Shown: positions 3,599 to 9,039 of the stretch, one piece after another
How positions within the stretch are numbered: position 1 is the first letter of the stretch
Layout of the letters: each line of letters opens with the position of its first letter
From: a virus
Length of the DNA stretch: 26,489 nucleotides
IMG/VR virus record: IMGVR_UViG_3300036790_000004
Span: 1-26,489 of that record
Direction: 5' to 3' (one strand)
Made by a program: the position numbers and the translations under genes
The notes under the pieces: generated by a model
Databases searched by the model: none
Told to the model about the DNA's origin: nothing
The model's input: only the letters and a program-made list of their open reading frames with translations

Positions 3599-4210
3599 TC
3601 AACCCCCCGCCGCCTGAATGGGACCAACTAGGTTTTGCTGACCAGAATTAACTACGCCGGTTGAAATGGAATACTGATCAGGCGTAGTCGTCTCGCCGCT
3701 TAGCGTCGACGCTGGATCAATCGTTCCGTCACTATTCGAAGCGCTTGTCGTCGCAGAGCCAACGATGGTCACTTGCTGACAAAGGGCGATGACGTTGAGC
3801 GTGTATTCCGAATCTGGATCGGTGCGAACGATCAAGCTGCGAATGAGCATGTTCGAATACTGACGCTTGCCGGTCGTGATGTTGAATGGCGTGCGCGACT
3901 GCTGAAGCTGTTGAAGCGCGCTGTAGACGGCTTGGACATATCCAACGCTCTGCGCCGAACTGTTCGACCATCCGCACCGCATTTCAACCGTGACCGGCAT
4001 CATGAAAGCGTGGTCGCTGACTGGCGTCCCTGTTTCGACGGGATGCTGCGTGATCTGCAATTCGTCGCGATGAATCTCTTCGATGACGACATTCGGAATT
4101 AGCGTTCCGATCTCGCGCGCCCCGGTCGAGATCAGCGCATAGTTCGGAACAGCGTCACCGATCAACGGGCCAAACGTCGCCAGCGATTGAACGGTGTTGT
4201 TGCTGCTCAT
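3599..4210 (-). CDS. Dit-like baseplate protein
   Basis: A 203-aa protein. Its central segment, IEEIHRDELQITQHPVETG followed by VSDHAFMMPVTVEMRCGWSNS, matches the N-terminal domain pattern of Dit-like tail proteins of Pseudomonas, Burkholderia and related myophages. These bind the tube end and begin the baseplate. A conserved helix (GYVQAVYSALQQLQQSRTPFNI) and a beta strand (YSNMLIRSLIVRTDPDSEYTLNVIALCQQVTI) follow. The Thr/Ser/Gly-rich C-terminus (about 155-203) is probably flexible. It overlaps the second tape-measure-like gene by ATGA at 4210, and the plug follows 4 nt after its stop. Confidence 0.78.
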   Translation of the reverse strand: MSSNNTVQSLATFGPLIGDAVPNYALISTGAREIGTLIPNVVIEEIHRDELQITQHPVETGTPVSDHAFMMPVTVEMRCGWSNSSAQSVGYVQAVYSALQQLQQSRTPFNITTGKRQYSNMLIRSLIVRTDPDSEYTLNVIALCQQVTIVGSATTSASNSDGTIDPASTLSGETTTPDQYSISTGVVNSGQQNLVGPIQAAGG

Positions 4211-6090
4211 GGTGACACCGCACTCTGAAGGCTCTTGGCCGCCTCGGCCGAAACACGCTCTTGGCTCTGGGCGACCAAGGCCGCCGTTGTCATCGGATCG
4301 GACGATCCGTCGATATCAATCTTCGTCGTCTGTGGCATATCGAAGCGATTCACATTCATCGAATCGCCGCCAAGGACACCACCCGGAAGCGGCGCAAGCA
4401 TCTTGACATGATCCTCGCTCGGAACGCCAAACGCACCCGGCTTCCAATCGTCCCACGGCGACAATGGTTTTGTGCCGCCAGACGGTCCAAATAACCATGG
4501 CGCCAATTGGCTACCTACGCCACCAAGCGTAGTGCCGATCGCCCCTTGAGGGTTGGTCGCCGGTGGTTTAAGATCGGGCTGCGCCGCCTTCAAGGTTGAT
4601 TCGTTCTTCGCCTGTAGGTCTTTGCGTCTTGCGTTTAAGATCGATTCATATTTGTCGGCGGCGCGCTGAGAGTTGAACTGAATGTGCATATGATCGCCCG
4701 TACCGGGTTCGATCCAAAAGTCACTGTCGGCGCCAGCGCCCTCGGACATCCCCAGACCAGTCAGATAGGCTCGCGCCCTTTGGCGAGCGCCGTTGTAGTC
4801 ACCATCATTCATCGATACGTCGAACGCTAAGCCCTCAGTGTGTTTCGAGTGGTAGCGAATCCCATGATGATAGGAATCGTTGAAGGCATGAAACTCGCCG
4901 GTCTGTGGATCATTCGCCTGAATCTGCCGGCCTAGATCGACGATCCCTTGAGACGCCGGACCACCGCTAACGGCCTCCGGGGCGTACAGGCGAAGCCCCT
5001 CATAGCCCGCAGCCGTCGTCATGGGCGCATCCTTAGCCGGCGGCGCATGAGCAGCGTCAGCGGCAGCGGTAGGGCCGCCGGAAGGCGCTCGCGAGGGGGG
5101 CGCCGCCGGCCCAGCGGGGGCTTGGCTGTCAAGGCCGGGCAGTCCCAGGTCGTTAGACGGTGGCGCCGCCGCGTGTGAGCTAAGCTTCGCGAAGAAGCCT
5201 TCCGCCCAAACACGAAACTCGTCGAGATAGAACAGCACGTCTTTGACGAGGATCGCCATTTGAATCATGTCGTCGTCAAGCCCGAACGTCGATCCCGGCG
5301 CCGCCAACTCTTCATAGTCTTTCGCCGAAAGCCCCTTCATTGACGAAAGATAATCGGCAACCTCATTAGATGCCTGATCGGCCCATGTCAAAAGCTTAGT
5401 GACGAGCGGCAGAACCTTCACTTCAAGCGCGTCGGCCATAATGCCGAGATCATTCGTCAGCTTCGTCCATGCGACGGCGGCTTTGTGCGACTCATAGGCC
5501 GCTTTGGCTGGATCAAGCTGGAATGTATCGAGCGACTCTTGGTATTCCTGCATCCGTTGGCCGACTTCCAACGGATGCTCATGAATGGCGCGGCCGAAAT
5601 ATTGGTCGATCCCAAGGCGAGCGATCAACGCCTCGACGACATAGTCTGGCATCCCGGCTTGATATCGAGCAGCGACTTGGGCGTCATAGTGAAACTGCCC
5701 CGTCCTCTGATCACGGACGAAGCCAAGCTTTTCGATGTTCGCAAGCTCGCCAGGGCTGCGACGATAAAGGGCTGCGATTGCCTCAACAGATTTCCTCGTC
5801 GCCTCCGAAGAGACGCCAAAGAACTTCATCGCAGCTTCAATCGACTTAATATTCGCGACGCTTTCAAGCGATCGTTCTGAAGCGAAATAGAGATCATCGA
5901 ATCCGGCAATGACGCCGGTCAATAGGCTAATCGCTTCCTTGGCGGTCGCAATGATGATGTCGGCGAATATGTTTGCCTTGATCGTCGCATCTTCAATCGA
6001 CGCGGCGAATTTGTCAGCACCGTTTTCGCCTTGATCAAAATTGATCGAGACGAGAAATTCTTTGATGGTCTCAGTGTTAGGATTCGGCAT
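4207..6090 (-). CDS. Tape-measure-like protein 2 with M15-type peptidase domain
   Basis: A 627-aa protein. Residues 1-240 are clearly paralogous to the protein encoded immediately upstream (shared TI-[KR]-EFLVS start, FD-x-LY-x-A, SLE/SVE-A helix, PG, LGF/IGF-x-RD-x-[KR]-TGQ, LDP-x-KAA, W-TKL). After a helical part and a Pro/Ala/Gly-rich linker (about 302-360) comes a peptidase domain (about 362-482). It has the M15 metal signature S415-K-H417-T-E-G-L-A-F-D424 and a distal H467-M-H469, with H417, D424 and H469 the likely zinc ligands. M15 enzymes cut peptidoglycan cross-link peptides, which suits local wall opening during DNA entry. The C-terminus is low-complexity. Start: a GTG at 6093 is followed by the ATG at 6090, which forms a TGATG overlap with the upstream stop. 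Whether this protein or its paralogue sets tail length is not decided by sequence. Confidence 0.8.
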   Translation of the reverse strand: MPNPNTETIKEFLVSINFDQGENGADKFAASIEDATIKANIFADIIIATAKEAISLLTGVIAGFDDLYFASERSLESVANIKSIEAAMKFFGVSSEATRKSVEAIAALYRRSPGELANIEKLGFVRDQRTGQFHYDAQVAARYQAGMPDYVVEALIARLGIDQYFGRAIHEHPLEVGQRMQEYQESLDTFQLDPAKAAYESHKAAVAWTKLTNDLGIMADALEVKVLPLVTKLLTWADQASNEVADYLSSMKGLSAKDYEELAAPGSTFGLDDDMIQMAILVKDVLFYLDEFRVWAEGFFAKLSSHAAAPPSNDLGLPGLDSQAPAGPAAPPSRAPSGGPTAAADAAHAPPAKDAPMTTAAGYEGLRLYAPEAVSGGPASQGIVDLGRQIQANDPQTGEFHAFNDSYHHGIRYHSKHTEGLAFDVSMNDGDYNGARQRARAYLTGLGMSEGAGADSDFWIEPGTGDHMHIQFNSQRAADKYESILNARRKDLQAKNESTLKAAQPDLKPPATNPQGAIGTTLGGVGSQLAPWLFGPSGGTKPLSPWDDWKPGAFGVPSEDHVKMLAPLPGGVLGGDSMNVNRFDMPQTTKIDIDGSSDPMTTAALVAQSQERVSAEAAKSLQSAVSP

Positions 6091-8387
6091 CACTGAGCCC
6101 CAACTGCAACTTGGTTAGCTCTAAGTGCGCTGAAAGCATCAACGTCCTTGACTGGCGATCCAACTGCCGACGACGGTGAAGAGCTATCGCCGTTGACCGT
6201 GATGCTGACGTTGTGTGGCGCCGCGACGTCGATCGAATGAAACTGAGAGCGAAGCCATGTCGATGCAAGGTTCGATGGATTTGCAGACGTCGAGTCAAGC
6301 GACGTCAAGCCCTCTGCGTTCCACTCTTTCCAGTGATCGGTGGGCGGCGCACGATCGTTTGATTGAAGCGCCGTAGCCGCAGTGTCCTTGTATCCTTGCG
6401 CTCCTAAATGAATGTGCTGCGCCGCGTCAGTATCGCCCTGAAGCGGAACGATTTGAACGCCGGCAAAATTCGGGTTGCTGGCAACGAACGACTTCAACGC
6501 TTCGTTGACGCCTGGGAACGCCTTTGGATCGAAGCCGAGAATGCGAATGTCTTCCGGCCGAACACCTCGTGAGAGAAGAGCGCCAACTTGCGACTTGACG
6601 ACGCCGAGCTTGTCTTGAATCTGCTCGCCGGTAGCGCCATTGGGGAAGTCATTTGACAAGCCGGTCGACAGAACGACAACCTTGCCAGAAATGTCGCCTG
6701 GAATGTCGCCGATCTCTTTAAGAACGGCGCTTGTGTTCGCACCAACGATGCCACCGCCTGGGACACCGCCATAGCCGTGAATTCCCTCGGCAAGACTGTC
6801 ACCAACGACCATCGCATTGGACGATGACGTTGAAGCGAAACTCTTCGGAAGGCCACGAAGAATGCTGAGAGACTTTTCTGTTTGAGCGAGGGTATCGATC
6901 GGGCCTTCATGGTCGCGCGTCAAGGAAGTCATCGCCTGTTCGTCAGTACCTTCGTTGATCGTTTTCCATACATTGGGATAGTAGGTTTGAATCTCCCACT
7001 TCAACGCCGCAGCCTGTTCGGGGACGGTCATTTCATTCGGCATCTTGCCAAATTGCTGCTTGATCCGCTGCGAGCGTACATCGTCCCACGATGCAATGCC
7101 GTGGGCTTTTTGGTATGGATTCGACATTGACGGATCAGAATGAACGTCAGCGGGATTTCTCAACGCCTCGCGCGAGACGCTGGCGACCATTCGCCGCGCA
7201 GCGGTATCGGAGACGCCCTGGCTGATCAGCGCATCATAAAGCTCTTTTTGATGCTGGGCGAGCGTCCCATCGGCAATCGTCGACGGCGGCGATCCCGGCG
7301 CGCCCGGCGATCGCTTCGATAGAAGGTCGCCTAGCGTGCTACCGACATCGCTACCAACGGCTGCGGCGCCATGGTCGTCAGCGCCCGAAGTGACGAAGTT
7401 AAAGAACTTGGCAACAGAGCTATCTCTAACAAGCCAAACGATCCAGTCTTTCAGCTTGCCAAATTCGTCGTTGAGATCGGACAGCGTCTTATGAAACTCG
7501 ATACCAATCTGATCGTAAAGCTTGCCCTTGTTCTTTTCGAAATCGTCGAACATCGAAGCGGCATCGCGCCCTTGTTTTGTTCCGGCGGTCAGCCATGGCG
7601 CTCGGGCATCGCCACCCGACTGAATCGTCTTCGCCGCTGGACTCGTCTGAGTCAGCAAAAGCATCTGATCGACGAACTTGAGAATGACGACGGACAGCGG
7701 CGCCATCTTCACCAAAAGAGAATCGCCGAAAATCCCCCAATCCTCTACGAGCTTCGTCCAAGCCGATTGAACGGCGTTGGCCTGCGCGGCGGCCTTATCC
7801 GGGTCTAGGCCGAGACGCCTTTGCGCATCGGCGGTTTCATTCATCCGCTGCTGCACGGCGTATGGATCACGACGAATGGCGTAGACGACGTTGGGATCAA
7901 CGTTTCTTAGATTCTGGATTAGGAGTTCGACCTGAGACTGCGACATCCCTTGCACGCCGCCAGGGCCAGCGGCGAGTGCAGGATTGTACGGCAACATTTG
8001 ACCAGTCTTCGGGTCACGATCGAAACCGATAGCGCGCGTGAAATAAACGTTCCCAGGCATGGCACGCAAGGTCTGCGCCATTCCCTCAAGCGACGACTTG
8101 GCGCCGTCAGTCGTTCCGCCAAGCTGGCTGATGGCGTAGGAAAACGACTTGATAAATGTCGCGCTCTCGCCAGTGCGCGCAGCGGCCCAATATAGCGCAT
8201 CGAAGCGCTCGGCCATATCATTGACCGCCTCATAAACTTTGCGCGCGGCAGCTTCAATCCCATCGGAGAGAAGCTTCGCGCGCAAAGTAGCTTTTTCGAT
8301 TGATTCGTTGAATTTCTGTTCTTGAGTCTCGTTGGATGACCAGCCGAGCGAAACAAGAAACTCTCTGATCGTTCCCTCTGACGGCAT
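6090..8387 (-). CDS. Tape-measure-like protein 1 with tail-lysozyme and SGNH-hydrolase-like domains
   Basis: A 765-aa protein lying directly after the tail assembly chaperone, the usual tape-measure position. Residues 1-245 are mainly helical and paralogous to the next gene. Residues about 374-495 resemble the phage tail lysozyme domain: LYDALISQGVSDTAARRMVASV, a candidate catalytic E407 in SREALRNP, GIASWDDVRSQR at 430-440, then EQAAALKWEI. Residues about 525-675 resemble an SGNH/GDSL hydrolase: G529-D530-S531, STGLSND (N579) and QHIHLGAQGY (H660). The usual aspartate of the DxxH block appears replaced by Q657. The C-terminal 90 residues are unassigned. The ATG at 8387 gives a TGATG overlap with the frameshift-product stop; a GTG lies one codon upstream. 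Tape-measure identity is from position and family pattern; the enzymatic calls are from motifs. Confidence 0.8.
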   Translation of the reverse strand: MPSEGTIREFLVSLGWSSNETQEQKFNESIEKATLRAKLLSDGIEAAARKVYEAVNDMAERFDALYWAAARTGESATFIKSFSYAISQLGGTTDGAKSSLEGMAQTLRAMPGNVYFTRAIGFDRDPKTGQMLPYNPALAAGPGGVQGMSQSQVELLIQNLRNVDPNVVYAIRRDPYAVQQRMNETADAQRRLGLDPDKAAAQANAVQSAWTKLVEDWGIFGDSLLVKMAPLSVVILKFVDQMLLLTQTSPAAKTIQSGGDARAPWLTAGTKQGRDAASMFDDFEKNKGKLYDQIGIEFHKTLSDLNDEFGKLKDWIVWLVRDSSVAKFFNFVTSGADDHGAAAVGSDVGSTLGDLLSKRSPGAPGSPPSTIADGTLAQHQKELYDALISQGVSDTAARRMVASVSREALRNPADVHSDPSMSNPYQKAHGIASWDDVRSQRIKQQFGKMPNEMTVPEQAAALKWEIQTYYPNVWKTINEGTDEQAMTSLTRDHEGPIDTLAQTEKSLSILRGLPKSFASTSSSNAMVVGDSLAEGIHGYGGVPGGGIVGANTSAVLKEIGDIPGDISGKVVVLSTGLSNDFPNGATGEQIQDKLGVVKSQVGALLSRGVRPEDIRILGFDPKAFPGVNEALKSFVASNPNFAGVQIVPLQGDTDAAQHIHLGAQGYKDTAATALQSNDRAPPTDHWKEWNAEGLTSLDSTSANPSNLASTWLRSQFHSIDVAAPHNVSITVNGDSSSPSSAVGSPVKDVDAFSALRANQVAVGAQ

Positions 8388-9039
8388 CACGATCCTCTGA
8401 GGGCTAGAATGGCTCGCGCATTGTTCTCGGCGCGGACAGTGATTGCATCGTTCATACGAGCAATGTCAAACAGCCCGATCGTGCCGTCTAACAGCGACTC
8501 GTACTTGCACATCCCTTCGAGGACTGGCGCGAGAAGCCAATCCTCGTTGTCGACCATTCTTACCGGGTCGAAGACTGGTTGTTTGCCTTTCCGAGCAAAT
8601 CGGAGAGGCTTTCGGGAAAAAAACTTGAGAACGTCAGTTGCAGGACGCCGATCACGATCCGCAACATCAACGACAAGTCGTTGTTTATGTCGTCGAACAT
8701 CGCACGCGACGCCGAAGCGTTCCACACCCTCGCGAACGATTGCTCACTGTCGCGCTTGCGGTCGCAAAGTTCGAGACACGTACCAACGATGAAGGTGCGA
8801 TCTTCGTTCGTCATCTTAGCCAATTCGCGAGAGACCGGCGTGATGATCGAACTGAGCTTTTCGAGCGGCATATCGGCGAGGTTCCTGAGCCCTTCCTTGC
8901 GTAGCGAAACGATGATCGGAATCATTTCGCCGAAACCGGAAGCGAGCAACGGGGAGACCTTGGAGAAGATCGCCATTTGCGTGAAGGCGTCCATACGTCT
9001 CACGCTATAGATTGAATCGCTGACCCTGAATTCAGCCAT
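8387..9039 (-). CDS. Tail assembly chaperone, -1 frameshift product (GT-type), joined at 8617
   Basis: Translation starts at 9039 and follows the short chaperone frame through the codon ending at 8617 (141 residues, ending SSFF). A -1 slip re-reads the T complementary to 8617 and continues SRKPLRFARKGKQP to the stop at 8387. This gives 217 residues, of which the last 76 are unique. The unique tail (DNEDWLLAPVLEGMCKYESLLDGTIGLFDIARMND) looks like a real protein: helical, acidic and hydrophobic in regular spacing. In lambda G/GT and equivalents in many tailed phages, the longer product binds the tape measure while the shorter end recruits tube subunits. The slip site, spacer and hairpin are listed separately. 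The tape-measure-like gene overlaps its stop. Confidence 0.82.
8560..9039 (-). CDS. Tail assembly chaperone, unshifted product (G-type)
   Basis: A 159-aa protein beginning MAEFRVSDSIYSVRRMDAFTQ. It resembles the short tail assembly chaperone found between tube and tape-measure genes in DUF3383/DUF3277 phages. It has a YSVRRMDAFTQMAIFSKVSPLLASG start, an FIVGTCLELCDRK motif, and a helical end (NNDLSLMLRIVIGVLQLTF). Chaperones of this kind coat the tape measure during tail assembly and are absent from the virion. It begins 3 nt after the tube gene stop. Beyond residue 141 the frame runs only 18 codons to its stop at 8560, while the -1 frame stays open to 8387, the classic arrangement for a programmed slip. 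Confidence 0.8.
   Translation of the reverse strand: MAEFRVSDSIYSVRRMDAFTQMAIFSKVSPLLASGFGEMIPIIVSLRKEGLRNLADMPLEKLSSIITPVSRELAKMTNEDRTFIVGTCLELCDRKRDSEQSFARVWNASASRAMFDDINNDLSLMLRIVIGVLQLTFSSFFPESLSDLLGKANNQSSTR
8586..8608 (-). promoter_or_regulatory. Stem-loop 8 nt downstream of the slippery site (frameshift stimulator)
   Basis: On the coding strand CCTCTCCGA pairs with TCGGAAAGG around a TTTGC loop: a 9-bp stem with one C/A mismatch and a 5-nt loop. The spacer to the slippery heptamer is 8 nt (8609-8616), within the range typical of -1 frameshift stimulators. The inner 5 bp are perfectly paired. Confidence 0.72.
8617..8623 (-). promoter_or_regulatory. Slippery heptamer T-TTT-TTT for -1 ribosomal frameshift
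   Basis: Seven A residues on the plus strand read as TTTTTTT on the coding strand. In the chaperone frame the codons are AGT-TTT-TTT-CCC, so the run is phased as X-XXY-YYZ. Both tRNAs can re-pair after a one-base back-slip. The -1 frame remains open for 76 further codons. Confidence 0.85.

Follow-up and report, generated by a model that had tools for sequence, protein, structure and literature searches.

Tandem tape measure paralogues with different wall-cutting domains in an uncultured contractile-tailed phage

The tape measure protein (TMP) of a tailed phage is normally a single protein that sets the length of the tail and bores through the cell wall, and TMPs are treated as the product of one gene that forms one homomeric ruler. 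The TMPs closest to the locus described here are those of myophages with a DUF3383 sheath (Magia, Bordetella phage IFTN9, SEN34, Mulock; phrog_12506). They share with it an N-terminal module and the gene slot between the tail assembly chaperone (TAC) and the distal tail protein (Dit) and, also as here, carry a wall-degrading domain ahead of a conserved C-terminal tail (C-tail). In these phages the TMP is one gene, whereas in the present locus the wall-cutting cargo is spread over two proteins, P1 and P2, and one copy is without the C-tail.

The TMP of Pseudomonas phage Pa193 (gp41, PDB 9b45) also has a homologous N-terminal region and a wall-cutting (transglycosylase) domain. It differs in that three copies of one gene product are docked by their C-termini; the last 19 residues (840-858) assemble into a trimeric helix that binds both the tail tip and the hub (PMC11042391).

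Two other systems resemble the locus in part. A LAS-type peptidase module with the motifs HxxxxxxD and HxH, as in P2, is present in motif 3 of the TM4 TMP, where it is borne by the TMP itself, and in VldE. However, TM4 is known for one TMP, and the likeness of P2 to VldE is remote, at the level of fold and motif only. Sle1 and Tme, which are TMP-like effectors from contractile injection systems, may be comparable in that a tape-measure-type module serves to load an ejected activity, but they do not deliver phage DNA and have other cargo.

Gene order around the pair

The window analyzed here, 26,489 bases long, makes up a complete linear virus record from an uncultured phage. On its minus strand, Pfam and PHROG profiles identified genes for the morphogenesis of a contractile-tailed phage, in the order DUF3383 sheath (PF11863, 4.5e-124), tube (a match to KPP10_Orf10), chaperone, P1, P2, Dit-like protein, Pam3-type plug, hub and spike, with the terminase upstream. 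The original prediction had the coordinates and strand of the two central genes right. The genes relevant here are the following:

8560..9039, minus strand, tail assembly chaperone (Phage_TAC_15; PF21822, 3.3e-15), directly upstream of P1
8387..8725, minus strand, ORF overlapping the chaperone (phrog_4364, 1.5e-16), whose stop overlaps the P1 start
6090..8387, minus strand, P1, first tape measure paralogue, 765 aa from ATG (766 from GTG at 8390)
4207..6090, minus strand, P2, second tape measure paralogue, 627 aa from ATG
3599..4210, minus strand, Dit-like distal tail protein (PF21821, 8.3e-32), directly downstream of P2

The ATG codons at 8387 (P1) and 6090 (P2) are probably the true starts. 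Both overlap the preceding frame in a TGATG, which at the P1 start is shared with the ORF that overlaps the chaperone, and AGAGGA lies upstream of the P1 start. This ORF is probably read via a -1 programmed frameshift of the chaperone, of the lambda G/GT kind; a run of seven T is present in the chaperone gene at 8617-8623 (minus strand). Because of the TGATG overlaps at the two starts and the overlap of the P2 stop with the Dit start, P1 and P2 were read as one operon. Misassembly of the contig is unlikely, since the overlaps are clean and the synteny is correct.

Shared module, different cargo and a single C-terminal tail

BLASTP aligned residues 3-242 of P1 with residues 5-240 of P2 at 89 of 240 identical positions (37%, 138 bits, E = 2e-38), as had been predicted for the first 240 or so residues, and a tblastn query of the record with P2 recovered P1 at 1.1e-37. 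At the level of sequence, a chance likeness of the two N-termini is excluded. The modules are placed as follows:

7665..8384, minus strand, N-terminal TMP module of P1, residues 3-242, by alignment to P2 and the TMP family HMM
5374..6081, minus strand, N-terminal TMP module of P2, residues 5-240, the faster-evolving copy

Both proteins matched the PHROG TMP family phrog_12506 (9e-23 and 7e-16) and also phrog_2276, another PHROG TMP family. An HMM of the TMP N-terminus, built without the two rows from the window, gave 3.6e-40 for P1 and 2.5e-32 for P2, and the N-termini of both matched those of annotated TMPs (Magia, IFTN9, SEN34 and others). In the PDB, the module profile found the Pa193 gp41 TMP (9b45_a, three chains) at E = 1.4e-7, and a narrower module profile did not find it there. 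The TMP slot, from the tail chaperone to Dit, holds both P1 and P2. N-terminal sequence and gene position therefore assign both proteins to the TMP family. By its sequence, P1 is a TMP paralogue rather than a complete TMP, because the C-tail of the family was not found in it.

The number of residues ahead of the cargo is nearly equal in the two proteins (about 372 in P1, 350-365 in P2); the total lengths are 22% apart. A match between the rods (P1 245-372, P2 243-358) was not used: 6 of 1000 shuffles were at least as good, and the region is a Pro/Ala-rich linker.

The C-tail of the family was located in P2:

4216..4371, minus strand, family C-tail of P2, residues 575-626, QTTKIDIDGSSDPMTTAALVAQSQERV

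A tail of the form QxTxIxVxGxxDPxxTAxxVxxxQ was present in all 54 complete single-copy representatives of the family, each of which scored 20.7 bits or more in leave-one-out comparison with the tail model. The P2 tail scored 43 bits, and none of 1977 shuffles was as good. No recognizable family tail was found in P1 (3.8 bits, a score reached by 67 of 2000 shuffles), and the other frames of the P1/P2 junction held no remnant of one. The original prediction that the two proteins diverge completely behind the shared module thus needs to be narrowed: the cargo does differ, but the family C-tail is retained in P2, and the P1 rod aligns in its first part, up to about residue 320, with a TMP of a second contig, L232, described below.

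If the C-tail corresponds to the docking helix of Pa193, P2 would be able to dock and P1 would not in the usual way. The better N-module in P1 and the docking end in P2 are the strongest hint of a mixed assembly; it is a hint only, because the Pa193 link of the P2 tail is made by position and family and not by direct alignment of the two tails.

The same division of parts can be read to mean that only one of the proteins measures the tail, the other being a cargo effector loaded via its TMP N-module. P2 would then be the true TMP and P1 a passenger, or P1 the ruler and P2 a hub-side protein. We consider this unlikely, if worth keeping in view. P1 is without a docking tail, and contractile injection systems provide known examples of TMP-related effectors (PMC13277306); against this, both proteins have the whole N-module with a similar length ahead of the cargo, both lie between TAC and Dit, and it is P1 that has the better conserved N-module.

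Three wall-cutting domains were assigned to the two proteins:

6873..7274, minus strand, phage tail lysozyme domain of P1, residues 373-506 (PF18013, 3.5e-7)
6321..6848, minus strand, SGNH-like domain of P1, residues 515-690 (motifs, alignment to L021, weak fold matches)
4606..5046, minus strand, LAS/M15-like metallopeptidase domain of P2, residues 350-496 (motifs, homologues, AF2)

The lysozyme-like domain of P1, already noticed in the original prediction, was confirmed by Phage_lysozyme2 (PF18013) with 30.9 bits, above the Pfam gathering cut-off of 28.2, and was also supported by the family HMM. Its glutamate, E408, is invariant across ten aligned sequences. Foldseek matched the phi29 gp13 tail lysozyme with a probability of 0.99-1.00, yet with E values of 0.07-0.09. 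The AF2 model of the lysozyme and SGNH region was weak (pLDDT 64), and Foldseek results there serve as support only; with the cargo models of P1 and P2 no match fell below E = 0.04.

The SGNH-like and M15-like domains that had been proposed are borne out by motifs, by the alignment of relatives and by weak fold matches, but not by Pfam. In P1, which had no Pfam match in this region, SGNH blocks I, II and III and the block V histidine are present (S532 of the GDS motif, G550, N580 and H661). All four residues are conserved with the TMP of a related phage (L021), to which the domain is 33% identical. The Asp of the block V DxxH motif is present in L021 and was not found in P1, which has Q658 at this position. 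We therefore call the domain SGNH-like only, and the ester-directed activity first ascribed to it is doubtful for the same reason. A profile search matched SGNH-type acyltransferase chains (5ug1/5ufy) with E of about 5e-4, and PatB, EstA, 3mil and PlaA were weak Foldseek matches. These searches point weakly to SGNH enzymes, including peptidoglycan acetyl-transfer proteins.

In P2, the zinc-ligand pattern HxxxxxxD plus HxH (H418-x6-D425, H468-x-H470) is invariant in seven sequences, and VldE shows the same pattern (PMC11667670). The AF2 model of the domain was confident (pLDDT 88). LAS folds (VldE 9flk, hedgehog) were among its Foldseek matches, all with E above 0.1 and amid unrelated folds; the similarity to VldE MT3 and to hedgehog, each of which has a LAS fold, was weak. 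Since no Pfam family, M15 included, matched the domain at E up to 1, we refer to it as LAS/M15-like and do not name it an M15 family member. Homologues were found in L020, a close relative of L021, and in L216, L217 and L219-L222. The module of the latter loci, which no Pfam family describes, is part of unrelated tail proteins (L217:844-4416, L216:4495-6558, L219-L222); its carrier in L217 is a lambda-type TMP_3 protein. The P2-type module is also similar to a portion of tail or endolysin proteins of the phage EL type.

L021 and L020 are the nearest relatives with one TMP. In the single TMP of L021, lysozyme and SGNH domains occur together, and in that of L020 the LAS domain lies behind a lysozyme-like region, which was recognized by eye and had no profile confirmation. 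A scan of about 195 TMPs found either module only in these two and in P1 and P2. The cargo of P1 aligned with L021 (26% over 261 residues), and cargo plus tail of P2 with L020 (25% over 285 residues). The cargo of the pair differs, as predicted, but the proposed acquisition of complementary hydrolases cannot be polarized, because L021 and L020 already carry similar sets singly. Across P1, P2 and the 54 representatives, Phage_lysozyme2 was present in 18 of 56 proteins and SLT in 9 of 56, so that one wall-cutting domain per TMP is ordinary; two TMPs that share a larger wall-cutting set are not. The N-modules of L020 and L021 are very similar and their wall-cutting cargo is completely different, a contrast that points to rapid swapping of the cargo behind a head that stays conserved.

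Copy number and origin of the pair

IMG/VR was scanned with three profiles and bacterial genomes with one, which yielded 289 module-bearing loci; this figure includes the window and counts some contigs repeatedly. The loci comprise 220 distinct N-termini, and 231 of them have more than 2.5 kb on both sides of the TMP ORF. A tandem pair was present in two of the 289 loci, the window and L232, with one copy elsewhere. The original prediction would have been refuted by relatives that routinely have two unrelated proteins here; relatives have one copy, and the prediction passed this test. Annotated phages with the same gene order (IFTN9, Magia, PSTCR3, SEN34, EKP1) have one TMP in the slot, and the whole records of the nearest relatives (115, 68 and 62 kb) have one TMP each. 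About 1,150 further bacterial genomes, few of which held the TMP family at all, contained no tandem pair. Queries of IMG/VR with P2 or the sheath as single proteins retrieved no relatives, so that profile queries were needed, and a DNA-level search of phage records found nothing. A second match in L161 (0.0066) and repeated module matches within one ORF were rejected as noise. In the open literature searched we found no precedent for a pair of tape measures, whether described as a second, duplicated or paralogous one; the phrase "two tape measure" in papers referred to chaperone genes or had other uses.

L232 is a 5.2-kb contig (IMGVR_UViG_3300014499_000092) on which the sheath end, tube and chaperone are followed by two TMP-type genes, the first complete (about 791 aa) and the second cut by the contig end. 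The twin arrangement is thus not unique to the window, which shares it with this one short contig. The L232 pair resembles that of the window in its tandem TMP-module genes behind the same tail genes, but has other cargo and apparently arose by an independent duplication. Its first copy keeps a C-tail, and the split of the docking tail is therefore not general.

By eye, the first L232 TMP (L232:1842-4217) contains a lysozyme-like EGLTDIEGKRYDR region followed by a CHAP- or NlpC-like region; this putative pair of wall-cutting domains had no Pfam matches. Two TMPs were also seen in Brucella sp. 21LCYQ03 Scaffold27. Both have 712 aa and the same kind of M15_4-type domain, and they lie about 16.5 kb apart (L125:3922-6060 and L133:7989-10127). 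One of them is well away from the tail cluster, and behind each lies an antisense gene for a small secreted protein. The extra Brucella TMP may represent a spare TMP cassette or an artefact of scaffolding.

P1 and P2 were sisters in trees of 27, 54 and 32 rows (99/94, 97/80 and 99/95), in a clade with L020, L021, L023 and L059, and with either copy removed the other stayed in this clade. Because the two are sisters in all three trees, tandem duplication, as originally predicted, is the favored origin of these paralogous TMPs. Gain of the second gene from another phage of the TMP family by recombination would explain why cargo and tail of P2 are like L020 and the cargo of P1 like L021. We hold such a gain to be rather unlikely, since the trees place the two N-modules as sisters (97-99% bootstrap) and each gene is preceded by the same TGATG junction.

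In the 32-row tree the two L232 copies were likewise sisters (100/95). A grouping of P1 with the first L232 copy, as expected from one shared ancient duplication, was rejected (p-AU 0.0096); a grouping of P2 with the second L232 copy (0.068) and of all four together (0.065) was not. The sister pairs and the p-AU values favor two independent duplications for the window and L232. The alternative is an old duplication plus gene conversion of the N-modules, with which the two looser groupings are compatible.

The branch of the P2 N-module is long (1.6-2.0 versus 0.7-1.0 for P1), which could reflect relaxed constraint. Together with the loss of the C-tail in P1, the long branch might indicate that one of the two genes is decaying and has lost its function. 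Such decay appears highly improbable given two long uninterrupted ORFs in an overlapping operon context, intact active-site residues in the lysozyme and LAS domains, matching GC by codon position in the two genes (0.60/0.46/0.61 and 0.62/0.46/0.62) and the recurrence of the twin arrangement in L232.

A proposed division of labor within one tail

We propose that a tandem duplication within the phage lineage would have yielded two TMPs that then divided their labor. P1 and P2 would both be loaded into the tube of the tail, most likely in a mixed TMP bundle that the common N-terminal module holds together and that P2 connects to hub and spike. Contraction of the sheath would push the bundle into the periplasm, where the enzymes may act together, P1 cutting glycan strands and P2 stem peptides, and the cuts would let the tube or the DNA pass. 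The basis for a division of labor lies in the N-modules, the operon adjacency, the sister relation, the differing cargo and the presence of the C-tail in P2 alone. We give an even chance to duplication, division of labor and co-loading of P1 and P2 in one tail taken together. Both proteins probably belong to one tail; their co-assembly, ejection and enzyme activity we infer from the genes. More tentatively, and with somewhat less than even confidence, we suggest a heteromeric ruler in which P1 is the glycan-cutting partner and P2 the peptide-cutting one with the only docking tail, and that such pairs arose at least twice in one uncultured clade.

The two genes might also serve as alternative TMPs. 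Each tail would then hold one homotrimer or the other, giving two virion types with different enzymes according to host or growth state, and two homomeric rulers of unequal length could give two tail lengths. The fast shuffling of cargo between the close relatives L020 and L021 and the Brucella contig with a second TMP outside the tail cluster are in line with such a use. However, P1 alone would have no docking tail, and nothing in the operon, where the two genes overlap, points to switching, so that we regard alternative use as quite improbable.

The arrangement suggests a ruler built from two different proteins. A natural pair in which cargo and docking end are separate would make it possible to test directly which region of a TMP does the measuring and which the docking, and the same pair would also test how many chains are needed and whether two kinds can be present within one tail. 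For the phage, it would mean that the wall-cutting repertoire can be widened by gene duplication instead of by lengthening a single protein whose size is limited by the tube.
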